Part shown: one piece after another, positions 10,068 through 35,295 of the stretch | Numbering within the stretch: the first letter of the stretch is position 1 | How the letters are laid out: each line of letters opens with the position of its first letter | Assembly (NCBI GenBank): GCA_029245125.1 | Contig: JAQWPZ010000183.1 | Span: 1-37,669 of the forward strand | Length of the DNA: 37,669 bases | Source of the DNA: Rubripirellula sp. | Lineage (GTDB): Bacteria; Planctomycetota; Planctomycetia; Pirellulales; Pirellulaceae | Direction of reading: 5' to 3' | Program-made: the position numbers and the translations under genes | The notes under the pieces: model-generated | Database searches by the model: none | Told to the model about the DNA's origin: nothing | Seen by the model: the letters and a program-made list of their open reading frames with translations, nothing else

Positions 10068-12818
10068 ATGGCCAACTTAACGGTTTTGCGCCACCGTCGA
10101 CTCGGCATTGCGATTCATCATCAACCGCCTGACCATTATCGTCTGCTCGGCTTGCCACGTTTGGAGTTGAACTCGGATGTGATTGATCACGCGGCGGAGC
10201 GTCAGCTAGACCATCTGCATCGTGAACCGAATGCGTTGCAGAATCCACAATTGGTTGAACTGTGCGGTCAGATTGATGGTGCGCGTCGTTGCTTGCTGAG
10301 TCATGACGAACATCTCGACTACGCGGCCAGGCTTCAGGGCTATCCGTCGGATTCGGATGATTTGGAACTTCAAGCTGCCTGGCGAACCTTCGCGGAAGAG
10401 TTTGAGGAAGCGTGGTTGACGGCGCAACGCGACCGACCAGATACTCAACATCTTTGGCTAGGCATTGCCCGGCATCAGCGGCCTGCTTCCAATGATTGCC
10501 TGCTTGGACTGGATGTGGGTGAGCGGGATGCCGAGGTGATCCGTTCTGCGGCCGATCGGCAAATTAGTTTCGTTCGCAAATTCGCAGCCGGCGAGAAAGC
10601 GGATGATGCACAGCGGCTTCTCGGGCAGCTATCGCGGGCGAGGTCCACCTTGTTGAAAATGGCTGAGGTGACTGCTGCAGAAGTAGCGCAACACGTTTCT
10701 AGTCCGGTTGCTCGTGGAAATGAACAAGCCGATTCACAAGACGGCATCGAAGATGGGGTAACCGATGAATCGAAATCGGCCCTGCTCGATCTGACACCGA
10801 GCACGCCAGAGCTGAGGATTGGGAAGCTAGAACTGGAGCCCCCGGTGGAATCGCCACTCCTCGGGCCACCATCCTCGTATCTGTCCCCGCCACCGCCCGC
10901 TGTCTTGCCTGAGGTTCGAGACGACCGCAAGCGGTTAGTTGTGACAGCGATGGTTGGCAGTGCAGCGTTTCTCGTGTTGATGTTGCTTGGTTTGTTTGCG
11001 TTGCCCATGATCTGGCCCCCCGATGACGTCACTCGTCCCGATGCTGGCCTGAGCCGTGTTCCGTCGGGGAACGCATTGCCCGGTCACGCCAGCACATCGC
11101 GAAAACACTCCACTGAGACGGGACCGGGCATGCGATCGAGTCAACGCGTGCCGCCATCGTCGCAGCGTGATGCCGATTTAGAGTTCAGTCGCTTCATTGC
11201 TCGATCGATTTCGTCGGCACCGACGGAGCTTGATCTGGAAGAGATCGAGTATTACGCATCGTTGGCGAGGACTCCACCACAGCAGCGTTCGATCGGGACA
11301 ATTCGTCAGCGGTTCATCTCTTGGCAATCGCATCGCGGCCGAATTGATGATGCGAAATTTATTGGGAAGCTAATTCAGTTAGAGTCAATATTGCAGCAGG
11401 TGGAACGCCGCATCGCACGTAGTGAGGGTGGTGAAAACGATTCGGTGCTGCTGGCTGACGCGACAGCGAAGCTCGACAAGATGCCCGCAGAATTTCCAAA
11501 TCATACTGAGATGGCGATCGAACGTTACAGACAAGTGGATGCTTGGGCTGAGCAGTTGCTCGGCCAACTGGATCATTCTGAATTGGACGAGACGCCCAGC
11601 GAGACGCCGAATAATGGGATACCGGGCGAAAACCCGTTCGTGGTGGTTACTCCACCGATTTCCAACCTGGGGGAGCCTCTGGATGAATCGGTAGATTCCG
11701 TAACTGAAGCAGCGGAGGTCGAAGCAGCGGAGGTCGAAGCAGCGGCTGAATCTTCGCTGATGAGAACGGAACGCACGTGGACGACAATCAGCGGTGTCAC
11801 CTTCAAGGCAGTGGTCGTCGACGTCGACCCAGAGGTTGTGATGTTTCGTCGGTCCATTGATGACCGGAAAGCCTCGATGAAGATGGACAAGTTGTCTGAT
11901 GCGGATCAATCTAAGCTACTTTCATTTCTTTATGATCGAGCCGATGCAGAGCAGTTTCAGTCAGCGGTGAAATTGATTCCGGCGGTTCAGTCCGATCCTG
12001 CGCCGGCGATTGTGCCGCTTCGTAAAAGCCACGTGCGATATGTCGACAGCCCCTATGCTGGATTGTGGGCCGCAGTCTGCATGGGCGAGGGCCTCAATCA
12101 AACAGACGAAGCTGCGCGTTTGTTGCTGCAGGTAATCCGAAGGATTAGAGAGCAACAGGCTCGCGATGATCAACGTCATCGCGTTACGTTGGCGGCAGCA
12201 CGCAACAATTTGGCAATCTGTAAGATCAAAGCAGGTGAATGGGATTCTGCTGCCATTCAGCTAACGCAGGCGCTGGAAGACGCACCTCAGGCGTTTCCGG
12301 TGGCGATTCACAATGGGCGGCAGCTGCTCTCGTCTACTAGTGAAGGCCGCTTGCTGGATGCTGACGCACGGGTGAAGCTCGAACAGGCACTTTTTAAAAC
12401 GGAGAAAGTGACGAGCGTGTTGTCGAGTGGTTGGTACTATTCGCTTGACGCAGACAGGCCGCGGTTCCGCCACGAAAACATTGGTGTCGTTGAATTGCCT
12501 TTTCCCCAATCAAGATCCGCGGTGGCTGGCGAGCCGGTCGTGCAAGATCGCTGGTGTCTAAGCTGCAAGGGAAGCGGGGTCATTCCGTGCGGTTATGGTA
12601 ACTGCCGGCGTGGTTCAATCGTTGTGAAGCAGCGTGTGCAACTCGCTATCAACCAAGTGACTGGCGAAGCGATTTATGGTGACAAGAACTTCAAGCAGAT
12701 CTGCCACCAGTGTCGAGGTGAAAGTAATTTCGATTGCCTGCAGTGCTCTGGTGGTCGCGTGACTGATGCCGATCGCGAACGCCTCGAAGTTGACAGCGAA
12801 CTGCTGGATGCAAACTGA
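10068..12818 (+). CDS. Membrane protein with two J-like domains, SHD1 domain and DnaJ-type zinc finger
   Basis: 916 residues, apparently multi-domain. Residues about 20-85 (HYRLLGLPRLE then DVIDHAAERQLDHL...ARRCLL) match the J-like domain that planctomycetes use in signalling proteins. Residues about 137-195 (CLLGLDVGERDAEVIRSAAD...LSRARSTLL) are a second copy. Neither has the HPD tripeptide of true J-domains. One transmembrane helix follows at about 291-316 (MVGSAAFLVLMLLGLFALPM). A glutamate-rich linker precedes an SHD1-like domain at about 567-627 (RTWTTISGVTFKAVVVDV, MDKLSDADQ). The C-terminus, about 831-897, has four cysteine pairs in the DnaJ zinc-finger style (CLSCKGSGVIPCGYGNC, CHQCRGE, CLQCSGG). 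The neighbouring Hsp70 gene converges on it. I infer a membrane-anchored co-chaperone-like or scaffold protein. Start ATG 10068 lacks a clear RBS. Confidence 0.85.
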   Translation: MANLTVLRHRRLGIAIHHQPPDHYRLLGLPRLELNSDVIDHAAERQLDHLHREPNALQNPQLVELCGQIDGARRCLLSHDEHLDYAARLQGYPSDSDDLELQAAWRTFAEEFEEAWLTAQRDRPDTQHLWLGIARHQRPASNDCLLGLDVGERDAEVIRSAADRQISFVRKFAAGEKADDAQRLLGQLSRARSTLLKMAEVTAAEVAQHVSSPVARGNEQADSQDGIEDGVTDESKSALLDLTPSTPELRIGKLELEPPVESPLLGPPSSYLSPPPPAVLPEVRDDRKRLVVTAMVGSAAFLVLMLLGLFALPMIWPPDDVTRPDAGLSRVPSGNALPGHASTSRKHSTETGPGMRSSQRVPPSSQRDADLEFSRFIARSISSAPTELDLEEIEYYASLARTPPQQRSIGTIRQRFISWQSHRGRIDDAKFIGKLIQLESILQQVERRIARSEGGENDSVLLADATAKLDKMPAEFPNHTEMAIERYRQVDAWAEQLLGQLDHSELDETPSETPNNGIPGENPFVVVTPPISNLGEPLDESVDSVTEAAEVEAAEVEAAAESSLMRTERTWTTISGVTFKAVVVDVDPEVVMFRRSIDDRKASMKMDKLSDADQSKLLSFLYDRADAEQFQSAVKLIPAVQSDPAPAIVPLRKSHVRYVDSPYAGLWAAVCMGEGLNQTDEAARLLLQVIRRIREQQARDDQRHRVTLAAARNNLAICKIKAGEWDSAAIQLTQALEDAPQAFPVAIHNGRQLLSSTSEGRLLDADARVKLEQALFKTEKVTSVLSSGWYYSLDADRPRFRHENIGVVELPFPQSRSAVAGEPVVQDRWCLSCKGSGVIPCGYGNCRRGSIVVKQRVQLAINQVTGEAIYGDKNFKQICHQCRGESNFDCLQCSGGRVTDADRERLEVDSELLDAN
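11706..11750. repeat. 15-bp in-frame tandem repeat in the J-like protein gene
   Basis: gaagcagcggaggtc occurs at 11706-11720 and 11721-11735, with a partial third copy. It encodes EAAEV repeats in the acidic linker before the SHD1 domain. Confidence 0.85.
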
Positions 12819-12851
12819 ATGACTTTCCGGCCGCGGCAATGAAGGCGTCAC

Positions 12852-12883
12852 GGCGCATTGAATGTCCGGCGCATTGAATGTCC
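12852..12883. repeat. 16-bp direct tandem duplication between convergent genes
   Basis: ggcgcattgaatgtcc is present at 12852-12867 and again at 12868-12883, in the 164-bp gap between the stop codons of the J-like gene and the Hsp70 gene. No clear terminator hairpin was found in this gap. Confidence 0.9.
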
Positions 12884-12982
12884 GCCGCTGAAATTTAGTT
12901 TGCTTGGGGCTATGCAGGGTCGTCTTTGACGCGAATTCACCCGCACCCTAAATGCCTCGCTCGGCCTCAGCAGAGTTCCCGT

Positions 12983-14983
12983 TCAAGATGATTCCAAGCG
13001 AGCTCGCAACGTTTTGATTTCTGCCGCAAGTTCCTTGACGGCTTTGGGAATGGTGCCGTTTTGGATGCATTCTCTGCCGAGCAACAAGCAGCTGAAATTT
13101 GCTCGTGATTCGGTTTGTTCAAACTTGGTTTTCGCCTTCGCCCGGACGGCGCCGAACCTCACCGCATCGGCACGGGTCGGGGGGTTTTGATTGTCTTGTT
13201 CGGCTTTATCGAGAGCCGCCGATGCCGCGCGAAAAGCTGCTTGAGTTTCCTGGGCTGATTGTTGCGTCTTTTGCAGATTGTTGGGTACCGTGGTCCGCAC
13301 CGCGGCGAGACCAACTTTCATGTAGAGTTGATCGAGTCGTCGGAGCACACTGCCCAGGTCGTTCTTGTTTGGCGTGCTGGTAGCTTCAGCTTGTGGGGTG
13401 TTGCCGGTTGCAGGCTCAATGGTCTCGGAGGATGTGAGGCGTTGCCGCCACGAATCTAAATCTTCCAATTCCGCTTCATCGGAACGTTGGATCTTGATTT
13501 GTGCCGATTGTCTTGTGTTGGGCATTCGAGCCGAAACCGCCACTCGGCCATCGGGTAGGTAGCGATAGGTGACTTCGATCTTTGAGCCTTTCGGAAGCCC
13601 CTCCGGTAAATCGCGAATGACACAATCGCCAAGTTGGATGCAATCTTCCGGGCGGTGGCTTTCACCCTCCAGAACGACCACTTTGACACTCCGTTGATTT
13701 TGTTCGGCCGTGGTGAAGACCTTTACCTTTTTGCATGGCAGTGGCGTATTTTTTGGGATCATGACAGCGTTGATCCGTCGCTTCGTTTGCATGTCGACGC
13801 CGCGAATTCCGAGGCTGTGCGAGTTGACGTTGATCAATTCAATTTGCGGTACTTTTGTCTTGCCTTGTTGAGTCAGCATTGCTGCATGGAGGGCAGCTCC
13901 TTTGGCAATGGCTTCGTCAGGCGACAAGGAGCAGTCGACCTCATGGCCGGTTGCTTTCTGTAGCATATCCGTGACGCCTGGCATCCGGCTGGAACCGCCT
14001 ACCAGCAGCACGCGATCGAGATCCTCCCAAGTCAAACCTGCTTCTCGCGTGACTTGGGACGTTGTCGTTTCGGTCCTTTCCAACAAGTCACGGGTGAGTT
14101 GCTCGAATTTCTCTCGCGTGATTTCGACGTTCAATCGAACTCCGGCGTGAAAGACGACCGCTGAGGTGCGAGATCGCTGCGACAGGGTGTGTTTGATGCG
14201 TTGGGCGTCGATCCAAAGTTGAGCTGCATCGCGAGGATCGCTGCGTGGGTCGATCCCGTGCTGTTCGATAAACTGCTCGGCAAGATATTGGGCGATGCGT
14301 TCGTCGAAGTCTTTCCCGCCTAGCTGGACGTCTCCGTCGGTGGCGATGGCGCGAAATTTGTTGCCGTCGATTTCCAGAATGGTAACATCGAACGTACCTC
14401 CACCGAGGTCATATACCAAGATGCGAGTTGGGCCGTCTGAGGTAGCGCCGTTGGCATCGAGCATTCCTTGTTGGCAGCCGTACGCTAAGGCGGCAGCGGT
14501 CGGCTCGTTGATGATATCCAGGACCTCGAGTCCCGCCATGCGGCCCGCGTCTTGCGTTGCTTTGCGACGGGCTTCATCAAAAAATGCGGGAACCGTTATC
14601 ACCGCCCGTTGGATGCTACCGAGTCGACGCTCGGCATCTTCTTTGAGTTGCTCGAGGACGAAGGCACTCAGAATCTGTGGTGGAACGTGGACCCCGCGGA
14701 TGCCACGTCGATAAACCGGTGATCCGACGTCACGTTTGAAGCACTCTGCAAAGTCATCAGGTTCCATGGCTGCTGCCATTGCCGCCTCGCGACCGATCAC
14801 GATCGCATGATCGTCAACTAGCACGGCTGTCGGTGTTAGCATGTCACCTTCTAAGTTCGGCAAACAGTAAGGTTTGCCGGTGTCATCCACGCATGCGACG
14901 GCCGAGTAAGTCGTGCCCAGATCGATTCCAATAGCCGGCCCCTCAGCTGAATCGTTGCTTGAATTGGCTGGTTGGCGATTCAC
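12983..14983 (-). CDS. Hsp70-family chaperone (DnaK homologue, divergent C-terminus)
   Basis: 666 residues from GTG 14983. The ATPase domain is complete: phosphate-1 loop [13 protein letters not shown] (18-30), the [12 protein letters not shown] region carrying the catalytic Lys, [29 protein letters not shown], phosphate-2 [14 protein letters not shown], and the adenosine motif [13 protein letters not shown]. The substrate-binding beta domain is recognisable ([12 protein letters not shown], then [17 protein letters not shown]), but the usual hydrophobic linker is altered ([10 protein letters not shown]). The helical lid is replaced by a poorly conserved coiled-coil-like tail. No GrpE or true DnaJ gene is nearby, so this is unlikely to be the housekeeping DnaK. 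It overlaps the FHA-like gene by 4 bp (GTGA), indicating translational coupling. It probably serves a dedicated role with its operon partners (inference). Confidence 0.92.
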
Positions 14984-16950
14984 GGATTCTCATCTCTTGG
15001 TTTGATTGGTTCTGTTTTGATCCACAAGTCCAGCCCGCGCTGACTGAGGTAAGCCTGTGCGTGCACACTTTCAACCGCATAATGCACCGGCTCTGAATCG
15101 ATGTCTTTGGGGATCTCGCCTTCAAATGCATAGATCCCCAGCAGCTCGCCTTGCTGATTGACGACCACGCTACCAAATGGCTGGAAAGGCAGGTCTCCAA
15201 GTAGTTGCAGCAAAAACGGTGGGCGGCCCTGAATCCCTGATTCATTCGGTGGTGGGACCACGTCAAGCAATTTGATCTTTGTGAACTGTGGATCGAGTGA
15301 ATCAAATTGGGACAACGATTCACCTTCGATTGCAAAACCAAAGCAAGCGACCGTTTGGTCTTTCTTGACTGTCTTCTCAAGTTCGGCCAGGGTGCACTGG
15401 TTTGGCAAGGATTGCTTCGTACTCAGAATAGCGAGATCAAAGAAAGCTTGTTGCAGTCCACGCTGCTGTGGGTTCTGGATCGATTCGGCTTTGAGATAGG
15501 CCGCGTGGGTTTGGACTTCCTCAATCTCAATGCCTTGGGGATCGATTAGATCCAGGTTGCGCGTGTCTGCCGCGAATACTTTCCAACCTCTGCCTCGAGC
15601 GTCGTTGATGCCGTGGGCAACCGAAGCGGTGGTAAGCAAGCGGTTGTCGTCGATCGCGCAGGCAGTCCCGAGAGGGACCAGTAACTTACCGGGAATCGTT
15701 TCGGTGACGACCAAGTAGATGCAGTCCCGCAGTTGTGTCTCGGCTACTTGCCAGGGATCAGGTTTGATTACACGAATGCGGACAAGGCCCTGCGTCCCTT
15801 GCTCGCCGGAACCATCATCGACTTGATACGGAATCGTGATCTCACGATTCGCAGATTGATCATCAATTCGCCACGTAAGCACCCCGGTGTTCGGATCGAG
15901 CTGAGCACCTTCTGGCGCACCTGCCCCAAGGCGGAAGGCCAATGCCTGAGCTGGCAGGTCAGCATCCTTCGCGGTCAGCGTGATACTGAAATCTTGTTGC
16001 TCTAACAGATTGACGGTTTGAACCGGCACCGTCTCTGGCTCTGGCGGTCGGTTGATCTCATCTACTTTGATCTCTAGCCACTGAGAGTCCTGTTGTTCGG
16101 ATGCATCACCTCGGCGAACAGTTAGTTGGCAACGGTATTCGCCCGGTCCATCCGATTCGGTGGTTTGCCAACGAATCGTGCCGGTCGCTTCATCGATCGT
16201 CATTGTCGGTGGTGCGTCCTCGTCTAACGAAAACCGATCTCGCGAATCAGCCTGGGTCAGGGTGGGACGCCAAAATAGTTGTTTGCCTTCTTTGACGACA
16301 AGGACGCCAAAGGGAACCAAACTTGGACGGGTTGCCTGCGGTTTGGACGTTCGAGAAGCCGCCCACTGGGTCCCCAGCATCACGACGATCAAAAATCCTA
16401 GCGTCCCTACCGCTGCAAAGATTTGGTTTGTTGAAAACCTGGGTGAGCCAGAAGGTTCAGGGTCAGCAGCCGATGCCGGTTCCGACGCTGCGGGAAAGGG
16501 ATCCCTGGTCGCAGCCGCACTCGCAGATGAGGTTGTTGTCGTTGGAGAAACCGGGGCGGGTGTTGGCGAGACTGATGCTGGATTAGCCGGGGCTGATGCC
16601 GTATCACGACTTGCGGGTTTGACCGTGGCGATGGGTGACAGCTTGCTGATGAATTCGCAAGATAAATCGGGACCCTCGTGTGACATCCGCAAGAAATCGC
16701 CCGACTTCAAGTCGGCAGAATCTTCGACTAGATCTTGGTTCAAGAAGATCGGCATCACACTGCCACAAACGACAGACCAGCCGCCGTTTTGCCATTTCAA
16801 TGTGACGCGACGATCACGGATGCCGGGGTTCGCTGTTACGTCAAAACTGATGTCATCGGACGGTTGATCGCCGATTTCAATCGCTTCTCGGTCGAACTCT
16901 AGCTGCTGACCTTGCCGGTCACCCGACAAAATAGTGATTCGGATTGGCAT
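14980..16950 (-). CDS. FHA-like / transmembrane / trypsin-fold protein without clear catalytic triad
   Basis: 656 residues. Residues 1-110 look like a diverged FHA domain ([32 protein letters not shown], then [13 protein letters not shown]), which in other proteins binds phosphothreonine. An Ala/Pro/Ser/Thr-rich linker leads to one TM helix near 180-205 ([17 protein letters not shown]). The outer part has Ig/cadherin-like repeats ([15 protein letters not shown], and the similar [16 protein letters not shown]). A trypsin-like domain follows at about 405-645 ([47 protein letters not shown]). The Asp block is present, but the His is not in the normal T-A-A-H position and no G-x-S-G-G is seen, so it is probably a pseudoprotease. 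It lies upstream of and overlaps the Hsp70 gene; 126 bp separate it from the gene before it. Topology suggests FHA inside, protease fold outside. Confidence 0.75.
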
Positions 16951-17076
16951 CGGCGGAAAAGTTGGGTTCGAACAGGGAAGGCAGTAGCAGAAAAGAGTTC
17001 AATCAATCGATTCCGATCGACACCGCTTAATCTGGTCAACACCAGTGGTTACGGGGCGACGACTCCGTGGCATGGA

Positions 17077-18147
17077 CTAGAAGTCAGGCTCGTTCGGTAC
17101 AAATTCAAGGTACAGCTGACGCATCTGCTGATAGACAGACGCGTAGGTCGATTCGTCGCCTGGCTCAGGATCGGCGAATTCCAGCTGGTGTTGAGAGCAG
17201 TGTCTCAGCAAATCGGTCAAGGTGTCACCGTCGAATCGCAGCTGATCCGAATAACTATCCGGGCTGTTCATCGCAAAGGCGCGGAGTGTTCCCGCTGCTT
17301 GAGCGCGGAAGAAATTTTCGCCAGCTTGTCGCGAGTGGGAAAAGGTGGCGATATCGATCGTACCTTTCATTCTTGCCCAGACGTAGATTTCATCGAACTT
17401 TGTCTGCAACTCGCCGAGTGACCGTTGCACTGCTTCAAGGGTAACGATGGACAACTGGTCATTATCGCGAATTTCCTTTAACGCCTTCTGTCGCACTTGA
17501 TCGTAATTAATTCGCTGCATTTCCAGCTCAGGTCGCATGAACACGCCGGGCCAAGTTTCGCCTACCAGCTCGGGGTCGGTGGGACGCATCGTTCGCGCAC
17601 CTTCGGACCCACCGGTTTGCTGCAGAAGGACATGGGAAAGGTCATCGGATGAAAGCGAAAAATCGGCGCCGTCGATGTCGGGAACCTGGCCCAAAAAGAT
17701 GCCGCGGTAGGCATTCGGGTCAGCGATTAAGCGGCCCATCATGAAGTTGATTCCGCCAGCAAGGTCGCCGCCGGGATCGGATTGTTCGATCCGCTTGTGG
17801 TTATAGCGACCAACCACGAGTTTGCGTTCCTGATAGTCCAACCGCTCTTCGTCGCGATACTCGCGATTCAACCGCCGCCGCTCAAAATAGGTTTCTACCC
17901 ACAGAATCGAGTTTTCCATGGCGATTCGGTCCGACTTCAGGTTGATCCGTCTGGCGATTGCCGCGGACTCCAAAAAGTCGCCCATCGCCACCGCACGCAC
18001 ACCCTGGGCGTGCAAATGTGTCGATAAGACGGTCGCGCCCGACGCTGGAGGCAGATAGACATGCCCTCGAACTCTCCGCTGGGCTTGGACAGGACCAGTC
18101 AGAAAGAGCAACGTTGCGCCCCAAAAAACGTAAACCAAACGTGCCAT
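17077..18147 (-). CDS. Secreted hypothetical protein, first gene of the Hsp70 operon
   Basis: 356 residues from ATG 18147 with GGAG about 8 nt upstream. A signal peptide (YVFWGATLLFLTGPVQAQ) is followed by a Gly/Val-rich stretch (HVYLPPASGATVLSTH). The body is charged and helical (RRLNREYRDEERLDYQERKL), with a domain containing INFMMGRLIADPNAYRG and a C-terminal helical bundle-like part. I recognise no family or catalytic motif. It begins the minus-strand cluster that continues into the FHA-like and Hsp70 genes, so it is probably a periplasmic partner of that module (inference from position only). What else it could be is open; the sequence gives no enzyme signature. Confidence 0.75.
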   Translation of the reverse strand: MARLVYVFWGATLLFLTGPVQAQRRVRGHVYLPPASGATVLSTHLHAQGVRAVAMGDFLESAAIARRINLKSDRIAMENSILWVETYFERRRLNREYRDEERLDYQERKLVVGRYNHKRIEQSDPGGDLAGGINFMMGRLIADPNAYRGIFLGQVPDIDGADFSLSSDDLSHVLLQQTGGSEGARTMRPTDPELVGETWPGVFMRPELEMQRINYDQVRQKALKEIRDNDQLSIVTLEAVQRSLGELQTKFDEIYVWARMKGTIDIATFSHSRQAGENFFRAQAAGTLRAFAMNSPDSYSDQLRFDGDTLTDLLRHCSQHQLEFADPEPGDESTYASVYQQMRQLYLEFVPNEPDF

Positions 18148-24307: not shown

Positions 24308-25588
24308 TTGGTGTCGGACGCCTGGAATTCCGGAATCGTATTTTCCGAATTGACCGATGTCGGTATGCGCCGCGCCAACAACCAGGATTCCTCTGCTTGT
24401 TTGCCTTCCACAAGTGCTGAACGCTTCGCGTCGCGGGGACATTTGTTCGTCGTCGCCGACGGGATGGGGGCACATGCTGCTGGTGAGTTGGCCAGCGAGA
24501 TGGCGACCGAGAAAATCGCCATGCACTATTTTCGTGGCACTGGTGACGATGCGATCGAGGCGTTGCGTTCCGCTGTCTCGGAAGCGAATGCAGCCATCCA
24601 CCAACGCGGGCAAAGCAATGCGGAATTCCATAATATGGGGACGACCGCCAGCGCGTTGGCGATCTTGCCCGCTGGAGCAGTGGTTGCACACGTCGGTGAT
24701 TCGCGTGTTTACCGACTTCGGGGTGGCTTGATCGAGCAGTTGACCTTCGATCACTCGCTGGTTTGGGAGATGGAGGCCAGCGGGCACTCCAGCAACAGTG
24801 TGTGGGGCGCTGCGATCCCGAAGAATGTGATCACCAGATCGCTCGGTCCAAATGCTTCTGTTGAAATCGACGTAGAAGGCCCGTTCGAAGTCAAGCCGAA
24901 TGACTGCTTCCTGCTCTGCAGCGACGGGCTGACTGGGCTTGTTGAAGATGATGAAATCGGCACTCTGATGGACTGCCTGCCGGAAGAGATGGCGACTCGG
25001 GTGCTCGTCGATTTGACGAATCTACGTGGTGGTCCTGACAACACAACCGTGGTCGTGGTGCGTGTGAAGAACCCGCCCACAATCGAGTCCCGACGTGCTA
25101 GGCCGAAGACCAGAAGAGGCAACTCCTCTGTTTCCCCATTCATGATTGCAGGCGCCGTGATTTGCCTCATCGTCGCTGGTCTGTTTGCCGTCATGCAGTC
25201 TTGGGGGCTGGTCGTCGTGGCTGTAATTTTGGCGGTTATCTCGGCCGTTACTTGTTTGGTGCAGGCGAGCACCGGAGGCAGCGGGAGCGTATCCGCACCT
25301 GCATCTGGCGGCAAAGGTCCATACCGAAGCGGCGATGCAACCGCGACACGGGCATTGTACGAATCGCTGGGAGAGAAGGTGAAAGAGCTTCGGGAAGCGG
25401 CCAGTCAAAACAACTGGATGATGGATTGGCGAAAGGTCAACGAACTGCAGGAGAAAGGCCTCGCAGCACTCAAAGCCAAGTCCGAAAAAGAAGCGATCAA
25501 GTTTCAATCGCGTGCAATCATCGAAACGATGAACCAACTACGCGAGCAGCATAACCGGGCAGCCAACGAGACTTCTCTCGATCATTAA
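24308..25588 (+). CDS. PP2C-type serine/threonine phosphatase with two TM helices
   Basis: 426 residues; TTG 24308 and GTG 24311 are adjacent candidate starts, and no ATG fits. The catalytic domain (residues 1-255) has all PP2C motifs: RRANNQDS, LFVVADGMGAHAAGELAS with metal-binding Asp, MGTTASALAI, AHVGDSRVYRLR, CSDGLTGLVEDDEI and GGPDNTTVVVVRV. Two hydrophobic helices follow (FMIAGAVICLIVAGLFAVMQ and WGLVVVAVILAVISAVTCLV), then a charged helical tail (about 345-426) that may be a coiled coil. From family knowledge it dephosphorylates Ser/Thr-phosphorylated partners of Hanks-type kinases. No kinase gene is in the window; the closest phospho-signalling gene is the FHA-like one about 7 kb away. 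Metal-dependent activity is likely. Confidence 0.92.
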   Translation: MVSDAWNSGIVFSELTDVGMRRANNQDSSACLPSTSAERFASRGHLFVVADGMGAHAAGELASEMATEKIAMHYFRGTGDDAIEALRSAVSEANAAIHQRGQSNAEFHNMGTTASALAILPAGAVVAHVGDSRVYRLRGGLIEQLTFDHSLVWEMEASGHSSNSVWGAAIPKNVITRSLGPNASVEIDVEGPFEVKPNDCFLLCSDGLTGLVEDDEIGTLMDCLPEEMATRVLVDLTNLRGGPDNTTVVVVRVKNPPTIESRRARPKTRRGNSSVSPFMIAGAVICLIVAGLFAVMQSWGLVVVAVILAVISAVTCLVQASTGGSGSVSAPASGGKGPYRSGDATATRALYESLGEKVKELREAASQNNWMMDWRKVNELQEKGLAALKAKSEKEAIKFQSRAIIETMNQLREQHNRAANETSLDH

Positions 25589-29250: not shown

Positions 29251-32200
29251 ATGAGACGGAATCGTCGCAATCAATGCTCTCGCCAAAACGTTAAGTCGCG
29301 TCGCCCCCTGCGCCTGGAGGCATTGGAATCGCGACGAGTTCTCGCTGCTATTGTCGTGACGACCCACTTGGATGTCGTCGATGCCGGGGATGGCCAACTC
29401 AGCCTTCGAGAAGCGCTCGAGCGCGCAAACGCCGATCTAGGACCGGATACGATCTCATTCGACTCCGTGCGGTTTGCTGAACCGGCTCGAATCGACCTCG
29501 TCTTGGGGCAACTGCAGGCGACCGATTCAGTTTCGATTGAAGGTCCCGGGCAAGATCGATTGACGATTGATGCTGGTGGAGCCTCTCGGATTATCGGTTT
29601 TTCAAGCGACGATGGTGATCTGACTCTCCGCGGGATGACTTTGACAGGTGGTCGCACGGTAGAGCAGAGCGCTGATACCAATCACAGCGGAGGCGGGATT
29701 CGGTTCGCCTCGGCGGGAACCCTGAGCCTCGATCATGTCGATCTGCTAAACAATCAAACGCAAGGCAGCGGGACAGCAGGAGGTGGGGTGTTTGCCGCCC
29801 CTGGCGATGTGGTGATTCGGCGAAGTTCTGTTGCGGGCAATCTGACCGAGGGAAGTGACAGTCCAGGTGGCGGTCTGTTTGTTGCTGATGGATCCTTAAC
29901 GATCATTGACAGCTTGGTTACGGGGAATCGGACTGCAGGAGTGGGATCGCGAGGAGGCGCGATCTATTCGTCCGGATCCGAACTGTCGATCGTCGGCTCA
30001 ACCATTTCGGCAAACCAGACAGATCAGGGGCAAGCAGACGGTGGCGGGGTTTGGACCTCCGCAAGCTTGACGATCGATCGTAGTCGAGTGCTTCGTAATC
30101 AAACCACTGGAACTGATTCGGATGGTGGAGCACTTTTTTCGACCGGTTCGGTGACAGTGTTTGAGAGTGATTTGTCCTTCAATTCAACGTCTGGCATTGG
30201 CGCCTCCGGTGGGGCGATGGCAGTCGACACCGCGGACATCTCCATCGTCAACAGTTCGATCACTGGCAATACAACCGCAGCAAGGTTCAGCTACGGCGGT
30301 GGCATCTTTGCAATTCGAAGTGAAGTAGCGGTTCACGTTTCAACAATTTCGACCAATCAGACGCAAGGCACTGAATCCGATGGCGGTGGTCTAGCGATTT
30401 TTTTTGGATCGATTGAGCTCCATAGCAGTACCGTCACGGAAAATGAATCAACCGGTCAGGGCGGTGGGCTTTTTCTTTTTGACAGTGTTGGGCGTGGTCC
30501 ACAGTTGTCAAATTCGATTGTCGCCGGCAATCAAGATGATGGCGTAGCGCCTGACCTGTTTGTGTCGGCAGGGTCTGTCCCCTTCCTGTTGTTCGCGAGC
30601 TTGATTGGTGACAACACTGGGACATCACTGGATGAGTCCCAAATCCCGAACGCGGAAGGCAGCTTGGTTGGTGACCAGGCCGGGCTTGGTGTCATTGACC
30701 CTGGGTTGGGAGCCTTGCGTTTGACCGGACTGACGCGGGTCCACCCGCTATTGCCGAGCAGTCCGGCGATCAATGCGGGTGACATTGGACTGAATCTTGG
30801 TCGCTTGGCCGACCAACGGGGCAAGCCGTTTGCTCGTGTTGTTGCTTCGAGTATCGACATTGGCGCCTTTGAAAGTCAGGGCATTGATGCATCGCTGTTG
30901 GTGGTGAATACGCTCGCTGACGAAGTCGACTTTGATGACTCAACGATCAGCTTGCGGGAGGCCGTCATTGTCGCGAATGGCAATCCGGGGTTCGACCTGG
31001 TGACATTCGACCCAGCTACCTTCGAGTCAGTTGCTCGGATCGACCTCGATGATTCACTGCTTGTAACAGATGCGCTCTCTATCGAATCATCTGTCGAGCG
31101 ATCCGTAACACTCGCGGCCGGAGGGCAGACCCGAGTCATTGATGTCGCTTTGGAAGCGGGGGATGTAACGATCGCTGGGTTAGTGATTCGTGATGGCCGG
31201 ACCTCTGGTGCGGATGCAAGCGGTGGCGGAATCCGGTTTGCGTCACCGGGTATCCTGACGCTGACTGATAGCGAGATTCTCGATAACACAACCAGCGGTA
31301 AACTGGCTGGCGGGGGTGGAATTGATGCGAGCCTCGGAACGGTAAGTTTGAATCGTTCCGTTATCGCTGGTAATTCGACACGCGGTGATTTTTCTGGGGG
31401 AGGTGGGATTCACGCTCGGCAACTGGAAGCGCGTGAGAGTACCGTCGCGAATAACCAAACATTGGGCTTTCGATCGCATGGCGGTGGCTTCGAAGTTTCG
31501 AATCGCAGCGGAATCGCACTGCAGATGCATCGCGTTACCGCGTCAGGAAATTTAGCCTTGGGTTCGCAATCCGATGGCGGTGCTATCGCTGTGCTGGCGG
31601 GGCGGTCGGCGATCGTTTCCAGTACGCTTTCTGGGAACGTTGCGACGGGCCGCGGTGGGGGACTGGCGTGGTCGCATCAACCAGAGGGAACGGATTCGCA
31701 CCAATTGCTTGCCTCAACGATTACCAACAATCAAAGCGATGGGGCCGGAGGTGGACTTTCGGCGATTATTAGCGACGGCGGGAACGCGGAGATTAGTAGC
31801 AATTTGATTGCGGCGAATACCAGCACTGCGTCGAATCCTGATCTTCATTTGATTCCGGGCAGTGGGCAATTGTTGTTCCTTGGCAATCTTGTTGGGGACA
31901 ATGCTGGAACGAGTTTGTCGGAAGCACCAAGTGGCGACGTCAATGGTAATTTGGTCGGTTCATCCTCGGGTGACGGTGTGATCGATCCACGACTGACCCC
32001 TTTAGCTGATCGAGGTGGTCGCACTGCTTCTCACTCGCTGTTAAACGACAGCCCTGCGATCGATGCCGGTCGCGTTGACGTGCTGACAGAATTGGCGACT
32101 GATCAAAGAGGTGATCCATTCGTTCGTGACTTTGGGAGTGGACCGGATATCGGATCCTTTGAAACGCAAATATTGGATTCGCGCTTTTTTACCGTGACTA

Positions 32201-35200
32201 CAGTGGCTGACGAATTCGACCACGATTCAGACCAAATCAGTTTACGAGAAGCGCTTCGCTTTTCTGCGGCAAGTGATGGTGAAGATATAATTCGCTTTGA
32301 TCCCACTGTTTTTGGAACACCTCAGACAATTCAGTTATCGCGTGGGGCATTGCAGGTCCATGATTCGGTTCAAATCGCTGGCCCTGGTGATGATTGGCTG
32401 GCTCTCGATGGACAATCCCATGATCGTGTGTTGGACATCGGCGGCCCTGATCTTCGTGTGACGTTACATGGGCTAACAATCACTGGCGGTCAGGCAGAGG
32501 ATGGTCCCGGCGGTGGGATTCGATTTGTTTCGGATGGAAGTCTGGCACTCGTGGATGTCACGCTGACGGCCAACGGGACAGCAGGTTTGAATGCCGGCGG
32601 TGGCGGTCTGTTTGTCGATGGTGGGAATTTGTCAGTCGAGCAAAGCCACATCGCTCAGAATGAAACGGTGGGCGATGGTGCTGGCGGAGGAGGGCTTTTG
32701 ATCAAATTCGCGAACGCGGTAATTGTCGATAGCCAGATTCGTGACAACCAGACTGCCGGTGACAATTCTGCGGGAGGTGGGATCAATGCGATTCAGTCAG
32801 AGTTGCAGTTGCAGGGGGCGGAGGTGCAATCCAACCGGACCGCGGGTATTCAATCCAATGGAGCGGGCATTGCCGCATTGGATGGCAGGCTCGTGCTATT
32901 CAACAGCCATTTAGACCAGAATCACACCGATGGCGATGCATCAGGGGGTGGTTTGTTTGTCGATCAGGGGACGGTCGAGATTTACAGTAGTGCGATCACC
33001 GGCAATCGGACACAGCAGTCGAGCACAGGTGGCGGCGGGCTGATGATTGACCGGGGAAATTTGGATTTGACGAACAGCACAGTGTCGGGCAACGTCGCGC
33101 TGGGCAACGTTGCTTTCGGGGGTGGCATCTTGGCCAGCAATGGGCAAATGCGAATCACGAATTCCACGATCACCGCCAATGCGGCAAGTGGTGGTGGGGG
33201 CATTGCCGCGTCGCAGGTAGACGGTTCGATGCCGGACGCCGACGGGTCGGTGTTGGATGTTGGTTTGACATTGGCGAACTCGATCGTGGCGGCCAACCAA
33301 GGACCGGCCCAGTCGCCTGATTTGTTCATTGATTTTTCCGATCCAGCCGACTTGTCATTGCGGTTCAGTTTGATCGGTGACCAAGCGGGATCGAATCTCG
33401 TTGAATCGCAGCAACCGGACAACAACGGCAACCGAATCGGTTCATCCGTTGGTGATGGAATGATCAATCCAGTGCTGCACCCGCTGGCCGATAACGGCGG
33501 AGCGGTTCCGACGCATATGCCGATGCCGGGCAGTCCAGCGATCGATTCTGGTGACGATAGTTTAGCGGTTGCGTCCAATGGAACGGACTTGGCTTTTGAT
33601 GGTCGCGGAGAACCACTTGCGCGTCGGTTCGGAAGGGTTGATCAAGGATCAATTGAGATTCAACCACCTCGTGAACCGTTGATTCAGTGGGATCGGCCAG
33701 CCAACCTTTTTGTCGGGACACCACTCAGTTCCCGTCAGCTGAATGCCGTTACGAACACGGCCGGCACCTTTGTCTATACACCTGCCTTGGGAACAGTTTT
33801 ACCCATTGGGGACGATCAGGAATTGAGTGTTCAATTCGTGCCCGAGAATACAACGGTTTTCTCATCAACTACCGCGGCGGTCTTTATCAGCATTGTTGAT
33901 CAATCGGATCGCGGTGATGCTCCTGATCAGTACGCAACGCAACATGCCGACGATGGTCCTCGGCACGTAATTGGTACTCTGTATCTCGGTGACACAGTTG
34001 ACGCCGAAACTGACGGCGCAGCGAGTCCAGATGCAAGCGGCGATGGGGAGGACGAAGATGGCGTAACTTTTATCACGAGTCTCGTTGTAGATTCTGCCCA
34101 GGTTACCGTCGCAACTGTGTTGGTAGAGGCTTCCACTCGTGGAGGGAAGCTGGACGCCTGGATTGATTTTGACGGGAACGGACAGTTCGATCACGGCACA
34201 GAGCATCTCTCGGGCGGTCAGAGTCTGCCCTTGGCCAGCGGTGAGAACCGCATCAGCTTCGCGATCCCGGCCGGCGCTTCGGCCGGCGACACCTTTGCCA
34301 GGTTCCGAATCAGTTCGGAAGGCGGGTTGCTGCCAACCGGACTGGCAAGCGATGGCGAAGTCGAAGATTATGTCGTGACCTTGATCGACGGGCAGGCACG
34401 GCCGCATGTGAGGGTCGGTTTACCGCTTGGCCCGACCACCCTTCGTCGACAGGGAAACGAAGTAATCATTGGCCGCTCCAACCGCGATTTTTTTCGGGCG
34501 CCCTTTGCCTCGGTTTCCCATCTTGAGTTTGTGGGCAACCAGGGCAGTAACGTGCTGATCATTGACTCCGTAGGTGGAGTTCCGTTGCCAAATAATGGGT
34601 TTTCGTTTGATGGCGGACAAGGTGTGAATACGATTCGTTTGGTTGGTCAGGGGTTGTCGTTAAACGTGACTGCGGGGAGCGACATTGATCTGGCCAACCT
34701 TGATGTGATCGACATGACGGACCTCGCTGAATCGACGCTACGAGTTGATGCAACCGCTGCTCGTGCGATCGATCCGACTGGGAATGGCTTGGTGGTGGTT
34801 GGCAGCCTCGACGATCAACTTGAAATCGCGGACGGAGAGCAATGGCGAATGGCACCGCCGACCGGAATCGCCGGCATGTTTTTTAACGTGGTCCGCCTAT
34901 CTGATACTTTCATTCAAACCGATTTTAGTAATTTCTGGCAGAACGTTGCGCAGGCCAGCGATGTCAATAACGACGGTGATTTGACAGCTGCTGATGCACT
35001 TCGCGTGGTTAACGAGTTATCCAGACACGCGTTTTCTGATCCGATCTCCGGAATCCTGCTCGATCCCGCAGCCGTTTCGATGTGGCCCAACGCTTATTAC
35101 GATCAAAATGGCGACGGCAGAGTGACCGCTCTCGACGCATTGCGGGTGATCAATGATTTGGCTCGATCTGATGTCGCATCCGGTGAACAGGCCGTGACTG

Positions 35201-35295
35201 CCGACGCTCGCGGAAATGCCTTGATCCTTGACGCGATCCATGCTCTGGAATCAGCCGACGATGAGAACGAGTGGCTGATCGGATCACTCGATTGA
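29251..35295 (+). CDS. Giant secreted beta-helix protein with CSLREA modules, GEVED and dockerin domains
   Basis: 2014 residues. The basic N-terminus carries LRLEALESRRVLA (20-32), which matches the LEPR-XLL motif typical of very large exported planctomycete proteins. Three modules follow, each opening with a CSLREA-like segment (QLSLREALERAN near 49, ISLREAVIVANG near 565, ISLREALRFSAA near 993). Each continues with right-handed beta-helix repeats of the S-x-I-x-x-N-x-T/A-x-G-G-G-I/L type and closes with D-x-R-G-x-P-F/L-A/V-R and D-I-G-S/A-F-E. Next come an Ig-like segment (about 1475-1550), a GEVED domain (RGDAPDQYATQHADDGPRHV, about 1554-1711, ending GEVEDYVVTL), a planctomycete-type spacer and a C-terminal dockerin-like pair (DVNNDGDLTAADALRVVNEL and DQNGDGRVTALDALRVINDL, about 1905-1970). 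Probably a surface adhesin or matrix protein. No enzyme motif was seen. Confidence 0.9.
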   Translation: MRRNRRNQCSRQNVKSRRPLRLEALESRRVLAAIVVTTHLDVVDAGDGQLSLREALERANADLGPDTISFDSVRFAEPARIDLVLGQLQATDSVSIEGPGQDRLTIDAGGASRIIGFSSDDGDLTLRGMTLTGGRTVEQSADTNHSGGGIRFASAGTLSLDHVDLLNNQTQGSGTAGGGVFAAPGDVVIRRSSVAGNLTEGSDSPGGGLFVADGSLTIIDSLVTGNRTAGVGSRGGAIYSSGSELSIVGSTISANQTDQGQADGGGVWTSASLTIDRSRVLRNQTTGTDSDGGALFSTGSVTVFESDLSFNSTSGIGASGGAMAVDTADISIVNSSITGNTTAARFSYGGGIFAIRSEVAVHVSTISTNQTQGTESDGGGLAIFFGSIELHSSTVTENESTGQGGGLFLFDSVGRGPQLSNSIVAGNQDDGVAPDLFVSAGSVPFLLFASLIGDNTGTSLDESQIPNAEGSLVGDQAGLGVIDPGLGALRLTGLTRVHPLLPSSPAINAGDIGLNLGRLADQRGKPFARVVASSIDIGAFESQGIDASLLVVNTLADEVDFDDSTISLREAVIVANGNPGFDLVTFDPATFESVARIDLDDSLLVTDALSIESSVERSVTLAAGGQTRVIDVALEAGDVTIAGLVIRDGRTSGADASGGGIRFASPGILTLTDSEILDNTTSGKLAGGGGIDASLGTVSLNRSVIAGNSTRGDFSGGGGIHARQLEARESTVANNQTLGFRSHGGGFEVSNRSGIALQMHRVTASGNLALGSQSDGGAIAVLAGRSAIVSSTLSGNVATGRGGGLAWSHQPEGTDSHQLLASTITNNQSDGAGGGLSAIISDGGNAEISSNLIAANTSTASNPDLHLIPGSGQLLFLGNLVGDNAGTSLSEAPSGDVNGNLVGSSSGDGVIDPRLTPLADRGGRTASHSLLNDSPAIDAGRVDVLTELATDQRGDPFVRDFGSGPDIGSFETQILDSRFFTVTTVADEFDHDSDQISLREALRFSAASDGEDIIRFDPTVFGTPQTIQLSRGALQVHDSVQIAGPGDDWLALDGQSHDRVLDIGGPDLRVTLHGLTITGGQAEDGPGGGIRFVSDGSLALVDVTLTANGTAGLNAGGGGLFVDGGNLSVEQSHIAQNETVGDGAGGGGLLIKFANAVIVDSQIRDNQTAGDNSAGGGINAIQSELQLQGAEVQSNRTAGIQSNGAGIAALDGRLVLFNSHLDQNHTDGDASGGGLFVDQGTVEIYSSAITGNRTQQSSTGGGGLMIDRGNLDLTNSTVSGNVALGNVAFGGGILASNGQMRITNSTITANAASGGGGIAASQVDGSMPDADGSVLDVGLTLANSIVAANQGPAQSPDLFIDFSDPADLSLRFSLIGDQAGSNLVESQQPDNNGNRIGSSVGDGMINPVLHPLADNGGAVPTHMPMPGSPAIDSGDDSLAVASNGTDLAFDGRGEPLARRFGRVDQGSIEIQPPREPLIQWDRPANLFVGTPLSSRQLNAVTNTAGTFVYTPALGTVLPIGDDQELSVQFVPENTTVFSSTTAAVFISIVDQSDRGDAPDQYATQHADDGPRHVIGTLYLGDTVDAETDGAASPDASGDGEDEDGVTFITSLVVDSAQVTVATVLVEASTRGGKLDAWIDFDGNGQFDHGTEHLSGGQSLPLASGENRISFAIPAGASAGDTFARFRISSEGGLLPTGLASDGEVEDYVVTLIDGQARPHVRVGLPLGPTTLRRQGNEVIIGRSNRDFFRAPFASVSHLEFVGNQGSNVLIIDSVGGVPLPNNGFSFDGGQGVNTIRLVGQGLSLNVTAGSDIDLANLDVIDMTDLAESTLRVDATAARAIDPTGNGLVVVGSLDDQLEIADGEQWRMAPPTGIAGMFFNVVRLSDTFIQTDFSNFWQNVAQASDVNNDGDLTAADALRVVNELSRHAFSDPISGILLDPAAVSMWPNAYYDQNGDGRVTALDALRVINDLARSDVASGEQAVTADARGNALILDAIHALESADDENEWLIGSLD

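Follow-up and report, generated by a model that had tools for sequence, protein, structure and literature searches.

A class of planctomycete Hsp70s without the HPD-reading arginine and its genomic pairing with J-like proteins that lack HPD

What is an Hsp70 gene doing beside the gene for a membrane protein whose J-like domains lack the His-Pro-Asp (HPD) motif? The question is raised by a 37,669-nucleotide stretch of DNA from Rubripirellula sp. of the family Pirellulaceae (GenBank assembly GCA_029245125.1, contig JAQWPZ010000183.1, positions 1 to 37,669), hereafter the window, in which the gene for the J-like protein P0001 converges on a minus-strand operon (18147-12983) encoding P0004, P0003 and the Hsp70 P0002. 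An earlier note, made from the sequence alone, had read the four genes as a dedicated chaperone system linking a cytoplasmic Hsp70 to the membrane and periplasm; our results support this claim in part, the joint chaperone function being something that we infer. The stronger phenomenon is a phylum-wide pairing of the Hsp70 class to which P0002 belongs with HPD-less J-like proteins, accompanied by a matching loss of the HPD-docking residues from the Hsp70. The genes concerned are the following:

10068..12818, plus strand: P0001, J-like membrane protein of 916 amino acids (open reading frame (ORF) translation, Pfam, family model)
12983..14983, minus strand: P0002, Hsp70 of a non-housekeeping class, 666 amino acids, GTG start (Pfam PF00012; tree)
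14980..16950, minus strand: P0003, 656 amino acids, with an FHA-like domain, a transmembrane (TM) segment, immunoglobulin (Ig)-like repeats and a trypsin fold without the catalytic His and Ser
17077..18147, minus strand: P0004, 356 amino acids, helix-rich, with a signal-peptide-like N-terminus (judged by eye)
14980..14983, minus strand: 4-bp overlap of the P0003 (FHA-like) and P0002 (Hsp70) genes (ORF coordinates)

ORFs, Pfam and the family model agree with the layout described in the earlier note, namely, a TM protein with two J-like domains convergent on an operon for a secreted protein, an FHA/TM/trypsin-fold protein and an Hsp70, the last two genes overlapping by 4 bp. The ends of the P0001 and P0002 genes are 164 bp apart and the P0003 and P0004 genes are separated by 126 bp.

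P0002 matches Pfam PF00012 with 404.7 bits, includes a nucleotide-binding domain (NBD) and a substrate-binding beta domain, and is the product of one of four Hsp70 genes in its genome (five matches, two of which are parts of one gene). In a FastTree phylogeny of 110 Hsp70 rows (local support only), the housekeeping proteins form one clade with support of 100, and P0002 falls into a separate large class, parted from that clade by branches that also have support of 100. The tree and the altered positions described below rule out P0002 as a housekeeping DnaK, one of two outcomes that the earlier note had named as refuting its proposal. The tree confirmed 19 of the 20 loci chosen as housekeeping and placed L246, a row first counted as such, elsewhere. 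Matches to the class of at least 340 bits were found in 40 of the 60 genomes of the family sample, including the window genome.

The feature that sets this class apart lies where a J-domain would be read. According to PMC8215388, D35 of the DnaJ HPD motif bonds R167 and Q378 of DnaK and H33 bonds the linker, and replacement of H or D of the motif abolished stimulation in every system tested; PMC7289447 states that DnaK R167H suppresses DnaJ D35N. The corresponding site in P0002 is:

14516..14518, minus strand: codon of P0002 Asp156, at the position of DnaK R167 (alignment; residue counted by hand)

P0002 has D at the 167 position and N at 393. Arg occupies the 167 position in all 22 housekeeping proteins and in 0 of 91 class Hsp70s, where it is replaced by D in most family members (D 65, A 3, E 3, N 1; n = 72), by D in 6 of 6 Hsp70s of the four-gene module and by various residues in the phylum sample (D 6, G 5, A 1, S 1; n = 13). 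Gln at the Q378 position likewise marks all 22 housekeeping proteins and none of the 91 class members, the six Hsp70s of the module having H or Y instead, and Asp is found at the D393 position in 22 of 22 housekeeping proteins, 4 of 72 family, 0 of 6 module and 5 of 13 phylum members. Other positions are largely kept: P419, a contact of P34, in 91 of 91 class Hsp70s, and the ATPase residues K70 in 90, E171 in 91 and T199 in 89 of the 91, with equivalents of all three in each of the 6 module proteins. The count of 91 leaves out L267, L268, L274 and L275, which branch at the base of the class, and three of these (L267, L274 and L275) have Gly at the 167 position; the Hsp70 of L370 is unreadable there. 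Six further Hsp70s of the phylum have D, S or G and no Arg at this position, and 11 other Hsp70s outside the class keep R, Q and D. A link between the 167 residue and the letters of the J loop, seen by eye as Ala167 in three related loci, was dropped because the cases were too few. Judging from these alignments, the HPD-reading arginine has been lost from the very Hsp70 class that stands beside HPD-less J-like proteins, a match that is striking but is not proof of contact.

The class also differs from housekeeping Hsp70s at its ends. Fewer than 60 residues follow the substrate-binding beta domain in 50 of the 72 class members from the family and in 12 of the 13 from the phylum sample, compared with at least 100 in 22 of 22 housekeeping proteins; thus, most class Hsp70s (62 of 85 outside the module) appear to lack a lid. 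The tail of P0002 measures about 165 residues, with no fold assigned to it, and that of the module Hsp70s ranges from 155 to 195 residues in P0002 and four of the five others, with 21 residues in the fifth (G300). At the other end, 14 of 57 class rows start more than 250 residues into their ORF. Both extensions that were tested, in L100 (4801-7527) and L143 (5989-9378), are N-terminal Ser/Thr kinases fused to a class Hsp70 (Pkinase E-values 1.1e-52 and 2.3e-51, respectively), and the Pfam Hsp70 match in these proteins reaches model positions 509 and 512 of 599, so that the beta domain is kept; 12 more of the 57 rows have similarly long extensions. The fourth Hsp70 of the window genome (L268, G000:C141) is very divergent (96.5 bits to PF00012), has a long N-terminal extension and carries Arg at the 167 position. 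A second conserved Hsp70 operon was observed in L132, L139 and L154, consisting of genes for an Hsp70, a vWA/TM protein and a CxxC/TPR/TM protein (Pfam run on L139); a J-like TM protein is encoded next to it in 2 of the 3 loci, and the copy of the window genome (L154, G000:C324) has no J-like gene. Genes resembling moeA and mobA, named by sequence, lie near some class Hsp70s (L106, L109, L113 and others, in clusters of 10 and 6 loci).

P0001 combines two J-like domains, a single TM segment, a TPR-like region and a cysteine-rich, zinc-finger-like tail, as detailed here:

10089..10337, plus strand: J-like domain 1 of P0001 (65.3 bits with a model built without the window rows; AlphaFold pLDDT 90)
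10440..10676, plus strand: J-like domain 2 of P0001 (69.2 bits with the same model)
10932..11015 (approximate), plus strand: predicted TM segment of P0001, with RDDRKR just before it (translation)
12550..12765 (approximate), plus strand: four cysteine pairs of P0001 (three CxxC, one CX4C), resembling the DnaJ zinc finger (translation; no Pfam match)

Under the positive-inside rule, RDDRKR ahead of the TM segment would place the N-terminus of P0001, with its J-like domains, inside the cell. Pfam does not detect a DnaJ domain in P0001 itself and, in the alignment, neither of its J-like domains contains HPD. In Foldseek comparison of the AlphaFold model of domain 1 with the PDB, nearly all of the first 30 matches are J-domain proteins, ranks 1-12 having probability 1.00 and TM-scores of 0.57-0.70, with no E-value below 0.001. 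The domain belongs to a coherent family of 85 residues, recovered with P0001 as 39 distinct rows, none of which has HPD at the J-loop position (one row has these letters elsewhere, near the C-terminal end). Pfam DnaJ matches 22 of the 39 members at E ≤ 0.1 (best 3.9e-5), and the family profile retrieves DnaJ from the PDB with E = 4.6e-4. The family is, in short, a remote J-domain family with the J fold and without HPD. The domain labels of the earlier note are accordingly to be amended: the J fold stands, without HPD, the FHA-type and trypsin folds remain below the Pfam cut-offs, the latter without His and Ser, and the DnaJ-type zinc finger is visible as cysteine pairs in P0001, with no Pfam match, and is absent from the three other J-like proteins of the module.

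A scan of 84,980 species genomes with the J-like model, in which the best 80 of 313 relatives were kept, returned 76 loci with planctomycete titles, some of them assigned by genus name. The four other contigs, from two metagenome-assembled genomes, are labelled Nealsonbacteria and Peribacteraceae and may be mis-binned. The module had been described as unique to planctomycetes, which fits these 76 of the best 80 loci; other phyla were not searched directly. We recovered 76 J-like proteins from 72 of the 80 loci, the gene caller having missed the J-like gene in the other 8; none of the 76 domains contains HPD, and 74 of the proteins have a predicted TM segment, usually shortly after the domain. 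Because of this, the J-like family in Pirellulaceae appears to be a large set of membrane proteins with an N-terminal J-like domain that is probably cytosolic. Outside the family Pirellulaceae, 11 of 16 readable J-like proteins linked to Hsp70 have a predicted TM segment, and the tether is therefore common, not universal. Two J-like proteins of one genome (G203, L356) have the letters HPD a few residues away from the canonical position. No full-length relative of P0001 was found in the 12 genomes searched.

The genes of the two proposed partners are neighbours more often than expected. Among the J-like matches listed for the family sample, the window left out, a hand count gave at least 11 pairs of J-like and class Hsp70 genes within 6 kb and at least 8 within 2 kb, all on the same strand, compared with 0.52 and 0.22 expected (Poisson P about 1e-11 and 1e-10, respectively); two pairs lie beyond 6 kb and are not in the 6-kb count, and L277 provides a twelfth pair. 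Similarly, 12 of 60 fetched class-Hsp70 loci hold a J-like gene, which in two cases is more than 6 kb away, a figure that includes four loci read in wider windows because a J-like gene was known nearby. In the control loci, a J-like gene was present in 0 of the 20 chosen as housekeeping dnaK and in 1 of 20 other Hsp70 loci, that one being itself a class member. In 17 genomes from outside the family, 27 J-like genes were identified at E ≤ 1e-10; 17 of these have an Hsp70 match on their own strand no more than 2 kb away, and all but one of the 17 are downstream of it. Such linked genes occur in 14 of the 17 genomes, six of the 14 belonging to one family (f2). In two loci of this family (L360 and L362), the genes for the Hsp70 and a J-like TM protein are flanked by two FHA-type genes; the Pfam order in L360, the one that was run, is FHA-GAF-SpoIIE, Hsp70, J-like with MshEN, and FHA-GAF-histidine kinase. 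The gene caller, which takes the longest ORFs, missed some genes, including Hsp70 or J-like genes, in several phylum loci, and seven of these loci were re-read.

Co-occurrence extends the pattern to the phylum. In 148 genomes, not counting the window genome, 19 have both the class Hsp70 and the J-like family, 2 only the Hsp70, 4 only the J-like match and 123 neither (Fisher P 4e-18, a statistic that ignores kinship); the genomes with both represent ten families. In the family sample, genomes with and without the class Hsp70 split 39 of 39 versus 0 of 20 for J-like matches at E ≤ 1.5e-21, and 39 of 39 versus 5 of 20 at 1e-10. The cut-offs were chosen with the data already in view: for the Hsp70, at least 340 bits in the family and 300 in the phylum sample, and for the J-like match in the latter, E ≤ 1e-6.

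The other two proteins of the module are P0003 and P0004. The predicted parts of P0003 are:

15133..15669, minus strand: trypsin-like fold (Trypsin_2 below cut-off; alignment)
15769..16029, minus strand: Ig-like (He_PIG) repeat (Pfam)
16366..16422 (approximate), minus strand: predicted TM segment (translation; also present in relatives)
16636..16950 (approximate), minus strand: FHA-like N-terminal domain (Yop-YscD_cpl below cut-off; alignment)

Both folds of P0003 score below the Pfam cut-offs (21.5 bits versus 33.2 for the FHA-type match and 17.4 versus 27.6 for trypsin). In all 7 aligned P0003 proteins the positions of the trypsin-fold His and Ser are replaced and Asp is kept, and 6 of the 7, P0003 included, lack by eye the GR and SxxH residues, which usually bind phosphothreonine in FHA domains; L314 keeps them. 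Since basic residues precede the TM segment (by eye), most relatives of P0003 probably have their N-terminus inside, the window protein being ambiguous. P0004 is probably secreted, given its signal-peptide-like start; its AlphaFold model is helical and of low confidence (pLDDT 72, pTM 0.45), and a Foldseek search with it yielded nothing informative. When 60 family genomes were searched with the whole of P0003, the matches were mostly to Ig-like repeats and none was a full-length relative; the C-terminal part was therefore used.

Among 296 genomes of the order, including the window genome, P0004 relatives are found in 22 and the P0003 C-terminal part in 7. Apart from the window, four genomes (G434, G211, G267 and G343) have the P0004, P0003 and Hsp70 genes as an uninterrupted trio, which spans three families of the order. 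In G211 (L308), the J-like, P0004, P0003 and Hsp70 genes form one co-directional run; G343 (L310) repeats the window layout, with the J-like gene convergent on P0004-P0003-Hsp70; and G300 has its four genes on two contigs, J-like next to P0004 in L311 and P0003 next to Hsp70 in L312. The trio of G267 (L309) has no J-like gene within 18 kb; the P0003 relative of G228 (L314) runs to the contig end, with no P0004 or Hsp70 seen. Thus, the conserved adjacency foreseen in the earlier note exists, the four genes being together in G211 and G343 and split in G300, but it is rare (7 of 296) and the J-like gene is missing from the locus in G434 and from the 18 kb read in G267. The J-like gene is the labile part of the module, and the module J-like proteins diverge outside the J-like domain; the zinc finger is confined to P0001 among four. 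A kinase/J-like gene also lies 2 kb upstream of the Hsp70 that is closest to P0002 in the tree (L220, 57% identity), yet its locus holds no P0003 or P0004 relative and is, for this reason, not the same module. Weak P0004 relatives from several genera of the family (L317-L319, L321-L326) adjoin or lie near an FHA-type protein with no Hsp70 or J-like gene in 18 kb; in L318, the one tested, this protein has FHA and a weak Trypsin_2 match. A P0003/P0004-type pair therefore also stands alone, which suggests that the pair is older.

The surroundings of the module are ordinary. The window comprises 28 ORFs of at least 180 amino acids, and 14 of the encoded proteins (4 of the module and 10 others) were run on Pfam; the flanking genes encode CCP_MauG, sulfatase, FadL-type porin, amine oxidase-type and aldehyde dehydrogenase proteins. 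Consistent with the earlier note, these 14 proteins include neither GrpE nor an HPD-type DnaJ, the rest of the genome not having been searched for GrpE; two true DnaJ domains are encoded on other contigs of the genome. There is no secretion-system gene among the 14 either, and the four module proteins match no anti-phage defence model (PADLOC, 0 families at E ≤ 0.01). A PP2C-type phosphatase gene lies at 24308-25588, about 6 kb from the module, and positions 29251-35295 encode a 2014-residue protein in which beta-helix, GEVED and dockerin domains are joined by a weak planctomycete extracellular motif.

How might such a pair work? We lean, tentatively and at somewhat less than an even chance, towards a dedicated Hsp70 module recruited to the membrane through a rewired, HPD-independent J contact. 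The class Hsp70 would be cytoplasmic, with its ATPase residues kept and the pocket for the HPD aspartate lost; its partners would be single-pass inner-membrane proteins, each with a cytosolic HPD-less J-like domain and variable parts outside. The J-like domain would dock on the NBD/linker face of the Hsp70 by the rewired contact and concentrate its ATPase at the membrane, where P0003, with its FHA-like, TM and pseudo-trypsin parts, and the secreted, helical P0004 may complete a trans-envelope complex, coupling events outside to Hsp70 action inside on clients in export or insertion. The reading builds on gene linkage, co-occurrence, the J fold and the residue replacements, from which we infer binding, topology, ATPase control and client handling. 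Several observations weigh against it. P0001 is encoded on the strand opposite to the Hsp70 gene and hence is not co-transcribed with it. The same-genus genome G434, in which the trio has 83-85% DNA identity to that of the window, has about 360 bp in place of some 3.3 kb of the window and no J-like gene at the locus. Within the family, only 6 of the 80 named J-like loci hold any Hsp70, some of the DNA being short, and most family J-like genes are therefore unlinked; in the phylum sample, the four genomes with a J-like match alone lack the Hsp70 class. The apparent absence of a lid from 62 of 85 class Hsp70s outside the module is a poor fit to a client-holding chaperone. Five of the 16 readable linked J-like proteins outside the family (L365-L368 and L370) have no TM segment on a simple scale, one or two of them perhaps being cut at contig ends. 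One row that the tree groups with the class, although its branch is very long, retains Arg at the 167 position (L268). Finally, the class Hsp70s form one clade, so that the loss of R167 and Q378 may be a single event and its match with the loss of HPD one coincidence.

The short tail of 62 of 85 class Hsp70s outside the module would be easier to understand if the class Hsp70 were an ATP-driven signalling switch, not a chaperone, with the J-like and FHA-like proteins as adaptors in phospho- or cyclic di-GMP signalling. The long N-terminal extensions of 14 of 57 class rows, with a protein kinase in both of those tested, and the FHA-type genes flanking the pair in L360 and L362 point the same way, and because of the kinase fusions and the FHA-GAF-SpoIIE and histidine-kinase neighbours in L360 this account, although we consider it unlikely, comes close behind the favoured one. 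Against it stands the substrate-binding beta domain, kept even in the two kinase fusions tested; moreover, the window module has no kinase match and its FHA-like domain is weak and devoid of the usual phospho-binding residues. It is improbable, in our estimate, that the J-like domain serves to inhibit or park the Hsp70, binding it with no stimulation and holding it inactive until it is released. The uniform absence of HPD from the J loop of 39 rows would suit such a role, considering the loss of stimulation on replacement of H or D reported by PMC8215388; however, the docking site of the Hsp70 is altered as well, and HPD loss therefore does not predict lost stimulation here. Marginally less probable still is that the J-like domain acts as an adaptor for planctomycete proteins in general and does not touch the Hsp70 directly, so that linkage would reflect shared regulation only: family genomes contain up to 12 J-like matches and 74 of the 80 named loci, some with short DNA, show no Hsp70, but adjacency and co-occurrence run through the phylum and the HPD-docking site is altered in the same Hsp70 class. 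That the genes are ordinary chance neighbours, as the absence of the J-like gene from the locus of the sister genome G434 might hint, is very improbable in view of the linkage and co-occurrence statistics and of the recurrence of the module elsewhere in the order, in families other than that of the window and in one case with an identical layout.

Beyond recruitment to the membrane, it is conceivable, at slightly lower confidence than the membrane-recruited module itself, that a second Hsp70/J system, orthogonal to the first, arose in Planctomycetota by replacement of both sides of the HPD-R167 lock that is widely shared elsewhere. Its Hsp70, without R167 and mostly without a lid, would be driven or positioned by a large family of J proteins that lack HPD and are for the most part anchored in the membrane; the system would be insulated from housekeeping DnaK/DnaJ and serve the cell envelope or its signalling. 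Hsp70/J pairs are regarded as having the contact between HPD and the arginine as their common switch. With both sides replaced phylum-wide and the genes still together, the system would, if real, be a natural orthogonal pair for asking what in J action needs HPD. It would also offer a possible handle on chaperone placement at the membrane in planctomycetes, with their unusual envelopes, and a function for a J-like family that is only weakly matched by the Pfam DnaJ model.

Searches of the open-access literature, covering titles and abstract openings of the papers listed and few subscription papers, brought up no report of this class of Hsp70, of the planctomycete J-like family without HPD or of a pairing between the two; in the parts available, PMC8195603 mentions Hsp70 just in passing and PMC2754498 reports the heat-shock dnaK, dnaJ and grpE of Rhodopirellula. 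The conflict systems described in PMC7159879, which centre on a GTPase and include Hsp70, GrpE and a DnaJ-FNIII protein, similarly encode an Hsp70 together with a J-domain protein, but the four module proteins give no GTPase or GrpE match, their J-like partner has lost HPD and their distribution is planctomycete. P0003 recalls YscD-type FHA-like proteins and HtrA-type trypsin folds in its order of an FHA-like domain, a TM segment, and Ig-like and trypsin folds on the far side, and differs from them in lacking the catalytic His and Ser and in having no secretion-system gene among the 14 window proteins. With the DnaK-DnaJ-GrpE system the module shares an Hsp70 with an NBD and a substrate-binding beta domain, a J-fold partner and intact ATPase residues; in contrast to DnaK, the class is a separate clade with R167, Q378 and usually D393 replaced and the lid-length tail missing in 62 of 85 members outside the module, its putative partner is HPD-less and mostly membrane-anchored, and no GrpE was seen among the window proteins tested. 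An HPD-less J-like protein is familiar from mitochondria, where the import-motor subunit Pam16/Tim16 works paired with the HPD-bearing Pam18. Although the module proteins tested include no HPD-bearing partner and the change here extends to the Hsp70 itself, the planctomycete family resembles Pam16/Tim16 in having a J fold without HPD, a probable location at an inner membrane and an association with an Hsp70.

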